Virus record (IMG/VR): IMGVR_UViG_3300032322_001430
Location: 1 to 27,906 of that record
From: a virus
Direction: 5' to 3' (one strand)
DNA length: 27,906 nucleotides
The position numbers and the translations under genes were made by a program. This document shows positions 12,318 to 17,464 of the stretch, piece by piece (position 1 is the first letter of the stretch; the number at the start of each line of letters is the position of its first letter). The notes beneath the pieces were generated by a model. The model had not been told where the DNA came from, searched no databases, and saw nothing but the letters and a program-made list of their open reading frames with translations.

Positions 12318-13040
12318 ATGGCAAGTGGTCCAAAGACAGAATATTTGATTTCATCATATAAAAAATCAGTTGCTCAAGATAACAAGCAAAAAGAACAACT
12401 TGATCAGGTTATTTCTGGTATTGAAATAAGAACTGCAGACGATGAAGATCCAGAATATGTTATTGAAGGAATAAACGAACAGATCAATAGATTTGATCCA
12501 GCAACAAAAGGATTGGATACTAGAATTTTAGAAATCAATAATCAAATTAAAACCATTCAAAATCAAATCCTAGTTCTAGGACAGCAAGCAAACGTTATTG
12601 GATGTGGAACAACTTCTGCTGCAGTTGTAGACGTTGTTGAGGATCGTGTTATTCTTCATTCTTGGTCATTTACATCACCAAATCCATTTTCAAAAAGCAC
12701 TCAAGAATTATCTTCAAACAATGTTGGCGTTGGAACTTACGATGTTGTGACACAAGTTTCCATTGGAACTTATGAAGGATTTACCACGCCAATAGTTGGT
12801 GATTGTGTAGGATATTCTAACTCCATTACAACACTTACAAACAGTTTGACTACGTATCGAGCAGAAAGAGATGCTGTTATTGTACAGATCAACGTTATTA
12901 AAGAAGCACGAGCATCTTATGAATTACAAAGATATGGATATCAAACTGCAAAATTACAGTTAGACGCTCAGATACAAAAAAAGAGCACTTTGATTAGTGC
13001 TCTTGAAGATCTTAATAATCAAAGATATTTTGAAGAATAA
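12318..13040 (+). CDS. Coiled-coil protein, unknown, probable virion component (240 aa)
   Basis: The only plus-strand gene in the left 23.8 kb. Two strongly helical, Gln/Asn/Glu/Lys-rich regions (about 5-95 and 160-235, for example LEINNQIKTIQNQILVLGQQ) flank a short beta-like centre (about 96-150, with VEDRVILHSWSF). The shape resembles a helical hairpin with a small head. No signal peptide or membrane segment is seen. Its own exact TATAAATA box marks it as a late gene. No Shine-Dalgarno sequence precedes the ATG because the opposing promoter occupies that space. The next gene converges on it with one base between. Late timing and fibre neighbours suggest a structural or fibre-assembly role, but no family was recognised. 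Confidence 0.7.
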   Translation: MASGPKTEYLISSYKKSVAQDNKQKEQLDQVISGIEIRTADDEDPEYVIEGINEQINRFDPATKGLDTRILEINNQIKTIQNQILVLGQQANVIGCGTTSAAVVDVVEDRVILHSWSFTSPNPFSKSTQELSSNNVGVGTYDVVTQVSIGTYEGFTTPIVGDCVGYSNSITTLTNSLTTYRAERDAVIVQINVIKEARASYELQRYGYQTAKLQLDAQIQKKSTLISALEDLNNQRYFEE

Positions 13041-14128: not shown

Positions 14129-14965
14129 TCAAGCCTCGACTTGAAGTTTTTCGATGTCTTTGCGTTCCGCTTGAACCAAATAATAAGCATCAATTGCACC
14201 GCCGCTAGAATTGCGAACAACAACTCTAACACCCCATTCAATGTGATCGACGAAAAGTTCTTGATAAAAACGATGTGGTGTTAGTTGAACAGTAATTGTT
14301 TCAGGATCTACGAGATCTTTCCAGTATTCTGGAAGTTCAATAATACCATCTGTAGTCACTCGTCCACGAACATAAACTCCATGTTCTGGTCCTTCTAAAG
14401 AACCATGATACAACTTTTTACCTGGTTTTGAAGGATGTTCGATTTCAAATGCTTTGCTATTTGCAGAAAAAGATCCGTTCACATGCATATTCCCATAATG
14501 TGTATAAAGTGGTGCTGCTGAAGTTTTAGCAACACAAGTGTCTTCTTGGACTGGTTGAGTGTTTGTTTCGCCACCTACTGCTACATTATACCCTGTTCTG
14601 TTCGATAAGCCAAGTGCATTGTTGATACCAATTTTGTTCAAAATACCAAGTTTGTTGGACATGCCAAAGAAATTACTCAAACCAAGGTTATTCATGTAAC
14701 CTGTATGTTGAGTTCCTGCAGTAACATCCAATCCTAAACTAGGAATTCCTGGACTAAATGGAGCAATTGCTGGTCCAATGTTTACTGCAGCACGAGCAAA
14801 TCCAATATTAGTGGGAGCACCGAAAAATGCAGGTCCAGCAACAGCTAAAGTACCTGCAAATGGATTTGCATCGTCATCTAATGTTAACGCAGATTGGTCT
14901 AATCTGGTTGGTATTTCTGGACCAATGTATAATTTACCTGCTGAAAGTTCGCCTGCTAATGCCAT
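14129..14965 (-). CDS. Hexapeptide-repeat spike/fibre-like structural protein (278 aa)
   Basis: Three parts are visible. Residues 1-90 are Gly/Pro/Ala-rich (MALAGELSAGKLYIGPEIP). Residues 92-127 form six consecutive six-residue units of pattern N-x-x-G-hydrophobic-x (NNLGLS, NFFGMS, NKLGIL, NKIGIN, NALGLS, NRTGYN), which suggests a beta-helical or beta-prism stalk. Residues ~150-278 form a C-terminal domain with FEIEHPSKPGKKLYHGSLEG and EHGVYVRGRV, a motif I associate with C-terminal regions of T4-like cyanophage structural proteins, ending YYLVQAERKDIEKLQVEA. A good GGAGGA ribosome site precedes the ATG, one base after the needle gene stops. Placement after gp5 and the needle suggests a baseplate spike or fibre attachment role (inferred). 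Confidence 0.65.
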   Translation of the reverse strand: MALAGELSAGKLYIGPEIPTRLDQSALTLDDDANPFAGTLAVAGPAFFGAPTNIGFARAAVNIGPAIAPFSPGIPSLGLDVTAGTQHTGYMNNLGLSNFFGMSNKLGILNKIGINNALGLSNRTGYNVAVGGETNTQPVQEDTCVAKTSAAPLYTHYGNMHVNGSFSANSKAFEIEHPSKPGKKLYHGSLEGPEHGVYVRGRVTTDGIIELPEYWKDLVDPETITVQLTPHRFYQELFVDHIEWGVRVVVRNSSGGAIDAYYLVQAERKDIEKLQVEA

Positions 14966-14966
14966 A

Positions 14967-15509
14967 CTATCCTCCGAAGACCAATTCTCCTAATAATGTA
15001 TTTACAAGATCTGAAACTGAAGTTGGAATAAGTTTGGTTTTTCTTTCTAACAAAAACACTGGATTACCTGATATAATGTTCCAACCATCACAATGACTTA
15101 GCATATTGTGAGATGCTCTAGTAGTTATATTCGTTCCAATAACAGTGACATTATTGTCAGCATCAAGTCTTATATTATGCTTTGAGTTTACAACAACATC
15201 ACCATCAGATCCTGTTGTTTCCATGATGATGTTTTTTCCTCGCATTGATATATCACCCTTCGCTTCAATATTGATATCTCCATCAGAAACAATATTGATA
15301 GGACCAGTTCCTTCTTGAATTAAAGTAGATCCTTTATCGTTGGATTTAGCCCATAAACACCATCCACCATCCTTATAAATGTGCAGTGCTGCTCCAGATC
15401 CACCACCAAGTTGAACGTGATGTTTTCTTAGGCATTTATCATCAGTTTCTTCGCCAATTTCCAGAAATCCGTGTTCTGGGTTATTAATTATAATTGGTGG
15501 TGATGTCAT
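14967..15509 (-). CDS. gp5 C-terminal-like needle (beta-helix spike) protein (180 aa)
   Basis: The central part (about 40-135) has short repeated strands ending in Gly or Asp turns: INIVSDGDINIEAKGDISMR, GKNIIMETTGSDGDVVVN, HNIRLDADNNVTVIGTN. This resembles the trimeric beta-helix of the T4 gp5 C-terminal domain, the membrane-piercing needle. In T4 this domain is part of gp5, but here it is a separate gene whose start overlaps the gp5 stop (ATGA, 4 nt), so stoichiometry could be kept by translational coupling. The C-terminal ~40 residues (FLLERKTKLIPTSVSDLVNT) leave the repeat pattern and may be a helical cap. N-terminal residues SGAALHIYKDGGWCLWAKSN may contact the hub. Confidence 0.65.
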   Translation of the reverse strand: MTSPPIIINNPEHGFLEIGEETDDKCLRKHHVQLGGGSGAALHIYKDGGWCLWAKSNDKGSTLIQEGTGPINIVSDGDINIEAKGDISMRGKNIIMETTGSDGDVVVNSKHNIRLDADNNVTVIGTNITTRASHNMLSHCDGWNIISGNPVFLLERKTKLIPTSVSDLVNTLLGELVFGG

Positions 15510-17464
15510 TTACTTACACAATCTACAACACGAATAACTTTTTCTGGTGGAACACTTACGTTAACTTCACTTCTTCTGACATACTTCATAACAGGTCTAA
15601 TAATCGCTCCCACGCCAGTCGCACTATTTATTGACAAGTCTGGAAGAGTTGTGCATCCAAGTTCAGATGAAATGATATTAGCACCAATAATTCTACCCTC
15701 ACCATCTAAAACTGGTTTGAGTACGCCACATTCGCTTTCAATCATATCATCTTCAGAATAACCAATACCAGTATTAACGATTTGAACACTATTGAGTTGT
15801 CCGACAACATCTTCACCCTGATTATCTGGAGTGATCTCTGATGTTGGAATGTATCCGCCACCAGTTTCAAGCATAACAATATTGGTTACTTGTCCATTTT
15901 CTACAATCGCTTGTCCAGTAGCACCATATCCATTATCACAAGCATCTATAAATTGAACAAATGGTTTTCCAGAATAAGCAAAACCAACATCAAGCATGTT
16001 TACACCAACAATTTGTCCAAAACTATTAACAACTGCCCTTGCTGCAGCACCAGCGCCGCCGCCACCGAAGATAAGAACTTCTGGTGGACCACAAACAAGA
16101 CTGTATGGATCACATCCTTTAACCAAACCATCAACAACTTCATCACCAACTTCATCTTTAGGAAACCATCCTTCAATAGTATTTGAAACATCTTTTCTAA
16201 GGTTATTAATTCTACCAGAAAGACTTATTGTTCTTCTAAAATCTGCAACTTGTTGTGGTGTTGGTCCAAAGTTTATTGCCCAGTTGTATGGTGTTGGTTC
16301 ACAAATTTCACCCTCACATTTTAAGAAATTCAATCCAATTTGAACATAGTTGATTGCTTGAGCAATATATCCTGTAAAAGATCCAACAGATCCAATGACT
16401 TGCTGAATAGCATCCATGGCAGGTCCAATTGCTTCTTGAATTTCATTACCAATGGATGAAATAAGTCCACCGATGAATTGTTCTGCAGCACAAAGTGGAA
16501 TATTGATAATTTTTCCAAGCATCTGCAGCAAGAAATCGCTGATGAATTTTTTAAGACCCTTTATAATATTTTCAATTAAACAAAAGATGGTATCCATCGA
16601 TTTTTTAATTGCAATATCTTTTAAAAGACTGTCTGGAACAAGGAAATTCAATAAATCTTTTACGCCATTATAAATTTTTTGGAACATATACTTTCTTGCC
16701 AATCGAATTAACTGAGAAAATGCTCCTGCAATCAAATCTGATGTTTGTCCGACCAAAGATCCAATATCAGCGATTTCTCCCAAAATAGGATCAATAAATC
16801 CCTGTTGAATATTAATTAAGTCTCTAGACAGTTCAATGAAAGTTGCTAGGGCTCTTGAAACTTCCCACAAAAATCCCTTGCCACCTTTACATTTTTTAGC
16901 ACGCCCTACAATTTTTTTCTTTACTTCGTTATTTTGCTTTCCTTGAAGACTTTCTTTTCCATCTGCAGTTTTACCACCACCAGGAACTCCATTCCCTGTT
17001 GGAGATCCTCCAGTGGCAGGTCTTACTGCTGTTGAATATTTTAATTGTCTGTTAAAATCAATTGGTAGAAATCCACTTGTGCCTTTATCTACAGCTTTCT
17101 GCCAAGCAACAAGGTTCTTTTCTGCTTCTCCACTAAACAATGCACCCAAAATGATGGGTTGTTGCATATCATCACCATCTAGGAAAAATCCTAGAACAGT
17201 TTCACCACCTTGCAAACCAAAACTAGTACCACCAAAGTTTTTACCAGCACCAAGATTTGGTGGTACTAGAAAATGTGCCCATGGCAATTCACTGTCAGGA
17301 ACCTCATTGGATGCTGGATGACGACCTAGGATCCTGACTTTTGCTCTGTATCCATACTTTGTGCTGAATTCTCGCCAACTAGGATCAGCTGTTACCTGTC
17401 CGATGAACCAATGAAATCCATCTTCTCCGATAAAGTTGATCTTAGATAGGCGTTGCTCCAGCAT
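15506..17464 (-). CDS. 5: gp5-like baseplate hub, OB-fold, without lysozyme domain (652 aa)
   Basis: The N-terminal ~112 residues match the gp5/VgrG-type OB fold: FHWFIGQVTADPSWREF, RAKVRILGRHP, LPWAHFLVPPN, GGETVLGFFLDGDDMQQPII, LGALFSGEA. A flexible Gly/Lys-rich linker (~145-195) follows. Then a long helical, partly hydrophobic region (~195-380; IFCLIENIIKGLKKFISDFL) stands where T4 gp5 carries its lysozyme. Residues ~462-625 hold GxGY-type beta repeats (GATGQAIVENGQVTNIV, ETGGGYIP). No lysozyme motif was seen. The beta-helix needle is encoded by the next gene. The start overlaps the CP12-like stop by one base (TGATG). Hub location is by homology; the function of the helical region is unknown. 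Confidence 0.75.
   Translation of the reverse strand: MLEQRLSKINFIGEDGFHWFIGQVTADPSWREFSTKYGYRAKVRILGRHPASNEVPDSELPWAHFLVPPNLGAGKNFGGTSFGLQGGETVLGFFLDGDDMQQPIILGALFSGEAEKNLVAWQKAVDKGTSGFLPIDFNRQLKYSTAVRPATGGSPTGNGVPGGGKTADGKESLQGKQNNEVKKKIVGRAKKCKGGKGFLWEVSRALATFIELSRDLINIQQGFIDPILGEIADIGSLVGQTSDLIAGAFSQLIRLARKYMFQKIYNGVKDLLNFLVPDSLLKDIAIKKSMDTIFCLIENIIKGLKKFISDFLLQMLGKIINIPLCAAEQFIGGLISSIGNEIQEAIGPAMDAIQQVIGSVGSFTGYIAQAINYVQIGLNFLKCEGEICEPTPYNWAINFGPTPQQVADFRRTISLSGRINNLRKDVSNTIEGWFPKDEVGDEVVDGLVKGCDPYSLVCGPPEVLIFGGGGAGAAARAVVNSFGQIVGVNMLDVGFAYSGKPFVQFIDACDNGYGATGQAIVENGQVTNIVMLETGGGYIPTSEITPDNQGEDVVGQLNSVQIVNTGIGYSEDDMIESECGVLKPVLDGEGRIIGANIISSELGCTTLPDLSINSATGVGAIIRPVMKYVRRSEVNVSVPPEKVIRVVDCVSK

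Follow-up and report, generated by a model that had tools for sequence, protein, structure and literature searches.

The window analysed here, a 27.9-kb virus record with a T4-like tail module, carries a 278-amino-acid open reading frame (ORF) in which a six-residue repeat is kept in exact register. We consider it probable that these hexads form the stalk of a homotrimeric virion spike that is either capped by a C-terminal domain, here called the HP domain, or ended by a Peptidase_S74 (S74) chaperone, and that is located at or near the central spike of the tail. The components of this proposal differ in strength. That the hexads make a trimeric stalk is very probably correct. The assignment of the protein to the central spike itself, which draws on gene order and on the absence of a PAAR match, is plausible while falling somewhat short of probable.

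The hexad array

Translation of the minus strand gives residues 92-127 as NNLGLS NFFGMS NKLGIL NKIGIN NALGLS NRTGYN, which bears out an earlier note on this DNA that had described six hexads of perfect length at these residues. Every unit begins with N, has G as its fourth residue and carries a hydrophobic or aromatic side chain at position 5. The same note had placed the repeat at 14587-14692; the upper end is right, but the start falls two bases short of the last codon and should be 14585, on the minus strand. Reading the plus strand from 14585 instead runs into a stop and yields no repeat. QHTGYM (residues 86-91) precedes the six units and VAVGGE (residues 128-133) follows them, and because both flanking hexads retain the glycine at position 4 we count the array as eight hexads (Table 1). 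Across the eight, position 3 is hydrophobic in six and position 5 in seven (column counts), and a VGG....QP motif that closes the array is conserved in most relatives (alignment A1).

Table 1. Features of the hexad-bearing protein and its upstream neighbours, in window coordinates
Feature	Position	Strand	Remarks
gp5, baseplate hub subunit and tail lysozyme family	15506..17464	minus	PHROG 1922, E 3e-100
Needle ORF, 180 aa, gp5C/VgrG-like beta-helix candidate, immediately upstream of hexad ORF	14967..15509	minus	
Hexad-bearing ORF, 278 aa	14129..14965	minus	Matches PHROG 17490 and 28536, both of unknown function
Residues 1-85, N-terminal part with GTLAVxGPAFFG...ARAAVNIGP	14711..14965	minus	Alignments A1, A2, A4
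Residues 86-133, eight-hexad array, G at position 4 (QHTGYM to VAVGGE)	14567..14710	minus	
Residues 92-127, six N-x-x-G-hydrophobic-x hexads	14585..14692	minus	Translation
Residues 134-165, linker behind the array	14471..14566	minus	
Residues 166-278, C-terminal HP domain (HPSKPGK...EGPEHGVYVRG...ELPEYW...)	14132..14470	minus	Confident beta domain, AlphaFold2
Residues 195-267, HP half resembling trimeric tailspike/fibre C-terminal domains	14165..14383	minus	

The six-hexad repeat is real and lies far from chance. When the whole protein was shuffled 20,000 times, the longest run of N-x-x-G hexads was three, reached in a single shuffle, as against six in the real protein. Shuffling the 36 repeat residues among themselves 100,000 times gave a longest N-x-x-G run of four (two shuffles), and the search for any two-residue motif with a period of 4 to 12 likewise reached four (two shuffles) in 1,000 shuffles. 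An origin of the hexads by tandem repetition of DNA was considered and rejected, because Tandem Repeats Finder detects no DNA repeat in the hexad-coding region; mean DNA identity among the six 18-base units is only 51%.

The array is also under purifying selection, and its flanks change residues more freely. Summed over pairwise comparisons with six close relatives, which are not independent of one another, residues 86-133 show 69 synonymous versus 4 nonsynonymous codon differences, compared with 120 versus 48 in residues 1-85 and 227 versus 45 in residues 134-278. The N-terminal part is conserved in both C-terminal types of the branch to which the window protein belongs, and is possibly the attachment end.

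Family databases give the protein no name. Neither Pfam (E<=1) nor NCBIfam (E<=0.1) yields a match for the window protein, the HP family as a whole is without a match in Pfam and NCBIfam and receives no function from PHROGs, and PDB sequence searches with the window protein, the family profile (A4) and the HP profile (A5) returned no credible match.

Gene order and relatives

The tail module runs from gp5 through the needle candidate and the hexad ORF to a 240-amino-acid ORF on the opposite strand and a 1767-amino-acid fibre. Matches of the needle ORF are weak, with PHROG 13211 at 0.0034 and DUF2345 at 0.0025, the latter below the cut-off (alignment A3), and hhalign finds no similarity between it and T4 gp5 (probability 0.4%). 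Because that profile comparison is empty, the label 'needle' rests on position, length and the weak DUF2345 and PHROG matches. A tblastn search with the needle matched only one phage record. The C-terminal region of gp5 (residues about 460-650) is a shared module with matches to PHROGs 701, 32965 and 708, whose members are a wedge subunit and further structural proteins of virions. The 240-amino-acid ORF (12318-13040, plus strand) sits inside the minus-strand tail module and has no Pfam match at E<=1; it has a relative in 25 of 35 related loci, inverted in 23 of them and on the same strand in two (L033 and L184).

The phages that carry the hexad gene are probably cyanophages, since two consecutive Photo_RC (PF00124) genes, which we read as psbA and psbD, lie on the 172-kb contig that encodes L008, a relative with 91% identity; PF00124 was found in 2 of the 12 records searched. 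The order gp5, needle-sized ORF and hexad-gene relative recurs in S-SSM7, S-PRM1, P-TIM68, DSL-LC02, S-8S53, Sf-CH8, S-CAM9 and DSL-LC03, whose annotations all call gp5 either hub/lysozyme or central spike. Sf-FS3 has the same order, with gp5 under another name and recognised by BLAST, S-T4 has three ORFs of matching sizes that are all annotated as hypothetical, and in Bellamy a needle-sized ORF and the relative follow a long hypothetical ORF. The relative is annotated as a hypothetical protein in all 11 annotated Synechococcus and Prochlorococcus phage records examined.

It is this position, directly after gp5 and the needle, together with the lack of a detectable PAAR protein, that suggested to us a trimer at or near the central spike. 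No match to PAAR_motif (PF05488) was found in the window protein or in any of the seven IMG/VR records searched, and T4 gp5.4, run as a positive control, matches this model at 9e-10. Several of the seven records are clearly fragments, and the absence of PAAR is for that reason unproven. Nor is gene adjacency proof of a position in the virion, because in T4 three ORFs lie between gene 5 and gene 5.4.

A tblastn search with the window protein matched 29 viral contigs and, among 50,697 phage records, 45, of which 21 aligned across 80% or more of the query. Among the matches listed for a first hexad DNA pattern, most were low-complexity frames (NPGGAK, NGNG). A stricter pattern yielded 65 stretches, of which a reading of the frames placed 24 in the hexad family and found 4 without in-frame hexads and the rest unrelated. 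In alignment A1 it is the N and G of the hexads that are invariant, but many of its rows were chosen by hexad patterns, and because of this bias we relied instead on a sample anchored on the needle. From 118 confirmed loci the best 80 were retained, and needles similar to the one in the window are overrepresented among them.

At 76 of the 80 loci an ORF of at least 80 codons lies directly downstream of the needle, and the other four loci end shortly after it. According to HMM matches, 72 of these 76 ORFs carry one of two C-terminal modules, HP or S74. At least four N-x-x-G hexads are present in 28 of the 76, nine with HP and 19 with S74 (the S74 calls were made with an HMM built from 11 rows of A1), and a further 44 are HP relatives without N-x-x-G hexads. 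The remaining four are an unrelated 87-amino-acid ORF inserted between the needle and the next gene (L219, L268, L269 and L271). Homologues with other numbers of hexads, for which the earlier note had suggested a search, do exist, in that the 28 ORFs with hexads have runs of between 6 and 9 glycines spaced exactly six residues apart. That note had also held that homologues lacking the periodicity would speak against a stalk. Such homologues are common by the criterion of the N-x-x-G motif, which is missing from 48 of the 76 ORFs (the 44 HP relatives and the four unrelated ones), but the motif-less relatives still favour a spacing of six.

This preference is evident from glycine pairs. In 25 distinct proteins with hexads, 202 pairs are separated by six residues where 46 would be expected. 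The corresponding figures are 75 and 32 for 30 relatives lacking N-x-x-G hexads, and 55 and 16 for 12 proteins of named records, namely 11 phages and the marine virus AG-345-D19. A second peak at a spacing of twelve is seen in the hexad-bearing group (143 versus 42 expected) and in the named-record group (46 versus 14) and is absent from the relatives without N-x-x-G (22 versus 28), which consequently have at most short runs. Because six-spacing is enriched in all three groups, N-x-φ-G-φ-x (where φ is hydrophobic) seems to be one variety of a broader class of six-residue stalk, judging from these sequence comparisons.

Two C-terminal ends

Neither the window protein nor the window record has a Peptidase_S74 (PF13884) match. 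In several relatives (L009-L014 and L049/L163), the hexad-bearing N-terminal part is 51-64% identical to that of the window protein and S74 replaces the HP domain. PF13884 matches at 1e-18 in L010 and above the cut-off in G002 and G008 (the records of L049 and L217). A profile of 17 S74-type relatives compared with the PDB matches 6f45 (2.6e-17), 8jov (8.2e-10), MyRF 7dc3 (4e-8) and 8hqz, an L-shaped tail fibre assembly (2.8e-4). A Ser and a Lys five residues apart are invariant in all 17 (S120 and K125 of A6), and the same Ser-Lys spacing is given for the autocleavage dyad S578-K583 of MYRF and endosialidase (PMC3742443). The S74 identity of the C terminus of these relatives is therefore solid.

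The HP domain has not vanished entirely from these loci. A separate ORF of 77-104 amino acids that matches the HP profile lies directly downstream (gap -49 to +27) in 14 of the 15 S74-type loci tested, and the 15th ends at a contig edge. Those inspected match the second half of the HP domain; stand-alone second-half ORFs include L009:4031-4321, L010:5804-6094, L049:8744-9028, one in L209 and others. No HP-half ORF lies downstream in another eleven S74 loci, which are of shorter types; three of these have fewer than 500 bases there. The small ORFs are intact and alignable, and because their codon differences are not strongly skewed toward synonymous ones (for example, 24 synonymous versus 26 nonsynonymous between L217 and L218), no strong constraint on them is demonstrated. 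A tree of the N-terminal part and the hexads (76/62 support) does not decide whether S74 was acquired a single time.

HP domains occur in other settings as well. In P-TIM68, a 78-amino-acid ORF matching window residues 194-266 (L034:6733-6969) follows a full-length HP protein, and in L017 to L024, as in Bellamy (L291), two consecutive genes both end in an HP domain. The domain also terminates other fibre-like proteins, such as a 1129-amino-acid protein in L016 and the 'putative tail fiber-like protein' of Flavobacterium phage immuto. Searches of the open-licence literature did not find a description of the N-x-φ-G-φ-x hexad, of a stalk capped by HP, or of an exchange of cap and chaperone accompanied by a split-off cap ORF.

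Proposed architecture and its alternatives

A single-chain AlphaFold2 model of the window protein is confident for the HP domain, with pLDDT around 90 at residues 201-270. Structural matches to HP residues 195-267 are dominated by tailspikes, depolymerases and fibres of phages or pyocins and by T4 gp9, which together make up 14 of the top 16. They include the Pam1 tailspike (Z 7.8), Sf6 (5.8), the LKA1 tailspike, the K64-1 depolymerase, the K1 lyase, AP22 gp53, R-pyocin fibres and T4 gp9, and the 16 matches span Z 4.9-7.8, values below 8 being common according to the tool; the other two are E. coli ZapD, a Z-ring associated protein. We take it as likely from the model that the cap shares its fold with trimeric tailspike C-terminal domains (Pam1 7eea, Sf6 2vbk, K1 lyase 7w1c, pyocin fibre 6cl6), a likeness of fold that does not establish kinship, with sequence identities of only 9-20% and Z 5.0-7.8. 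The tailspike-like stretch is about the half that occurs as a separate ORF in S74-type relatives. In BFVD, a 78-amino-acid viral protein matches 77 columns of the window model at E 9.7e-9, with a TM of 0.93 when normalised to its own length, and would appear to cover that same half. Foldseek against the PDB gave no match to the window model at E<=0.001, the best being 0.07.

For the hexads, the same model has pLDDT 28-37 and no assigned strands, and the single-chain model of an S74-type relative likewise gives no resolved stalk (hexad pLDDT about 23-35) and gives the chaperone a long C-terminal helix. These values are compatible with a chain that needs partners in order to fold, but also with disorder, the prediction of which the earlier note had regarded as a reason to abandon a stalk.

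Its proposal of a regular stalk, possibly a trimeric beta-helix, leading from the N terminus to the HPSKPGK domain does fit the S74-type relatives and the stalk of MyRF, and the trimer is one that we infer from them. The only PDB fold matches of the S74-type model at E<=0.001 are three MyRF chains (3.4e-5), in agreement with the profile match of the same domain. MyRF is described as having a beta-helical trimer stalk of hexapeptide repeats directly upstream of the intramolecular chaperone (ICA/S74), with core residues one apart (PMC8326128), as in the window hexads. A hexapeptide stalk ahead of an S74 domain is thus already known from at least one solved case, and the S74-type chaperone proteins MyRF (PMC8326128) and T5 pb1 (PMC4690869) are both trimers. 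MyRF differs in being a mammalian transcription factor whose stalk is only partly intertwined, and the window protein differs in lacking the S74 domain. Among phage spikes, the trimeric, triple-stranded beta-helix at the C terminus of T4 gp5 also has a regular repeat, in which a ladder of hydrogen bonds on the surface is reported to be formed by Asn or Asp at one repeat position (PMC4576200), and the hexad gene lies one ORF from gp5. The T4 repeat (Gp5_C, PF06715) is, however, an octad, VxGxxxxx, rather than a hexad, and Gp5_C has no match at E<=1 in the window protein or the needle. T4 gp5.4, the PAAR tip, is likewise encoded after gp5 and occupies the distal spike position proposed here for the hexad protein, but the latter has no PAAR motif match and shows no similarity to it by hhalign (probability 0.5%).

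In the architecture that we favour, each hexad (N-x-φ-G-φ-x) would make one short beta-strand, its two hydrophobic residues, one residue apart, would point into the core of a three-chain triangular prism, and Gly and Asn would fill tight strand and corner positions. The HP domain would then close the stalk as a tailspike-like cap. In S74-type relatives, an intramolecular chaperone in place of the cap would trimerise the chains, set the stalk in register and release itself by self-cleavage, and the separate small gene would provide half of the former cap.

The same trimeric hexad stalk could instead belong to a peripheral receptor-binding spike or a short fibre on the baseplate, which we regard as somewhat unlikely. 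The resemblance of the cap to the ends of tailspikes and pyocin fibres, the HP domains that end other fibre-like proteins and the frequent occurrence of S74 in tail fibres all speak for such a location. Against it, the relative lies directly after the needle in 72 of the 76 sampled loci, and homologues of the large fibre are found further along the module.

That the hexads are a flexible or disordered linker of biased composition appears improbable. The low pLDDT in both models and the many relatives with other sequences at the hexad site would fit a linker. Disordered linkers, however, are not expected to hold register, and here an exact six-residue register with alternating hydrophobic positions extends over eight units, nonsynonymous changes in the array are rare, and the six-residue spacing of glycines is retained in relatives that were not selected for hexads.

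We see very little chance that the protein is a non-virion assembly factor that aids folding of the needle, as its place beside the needle gene and the chaperone nature of one of its C-terminal types might imply; the S74-type chaperone of T5 pb1 serves the chain it belongs to and undergoes autoproteolysis (PMC4690869). The likeness of the cap to structural tailspike ends also argues against such a role. Slighter still is the chance of a monomeric left-handed parallel beta-helix of the hexapeptide-acyltransferase kind, a fold with six residues per face that the period would fit, given the lack of a Pfam match at E<=1, a single-chain model without a coil (if of low confidence there), an array of eight hexads that would give fewer than three coils, and a coupling to S74 that points to trimers.

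With a homotrimeric, hexad-stalked spike as the preferred reading, a hypothetical protein of Synechococcus and Prochlorococcus phages gains a testable architecture, and N-x-φ-G-φ-x hexads become a sequence signature that might reveal trimeric stalks. In this family a cis cap is naturally exchanged for a chaperone together with a split-off cap ORF, which is relevant to the gain and loss of intramolecular chaperones by phage fibres. More tentatively, and with the chances rather against it, marine T4-like phages may carry a third central-spike component in place of the PAAR tip, a hexad-stalk trimer that has either a permanent cis cap or a self-cleaving S74 domain complemented by a trans cap half from a split-off gene. 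If this is true, the chaperone-plus-split-cap arrangement would mean that a single orthologous gene has switched from one assembly strategy to another.
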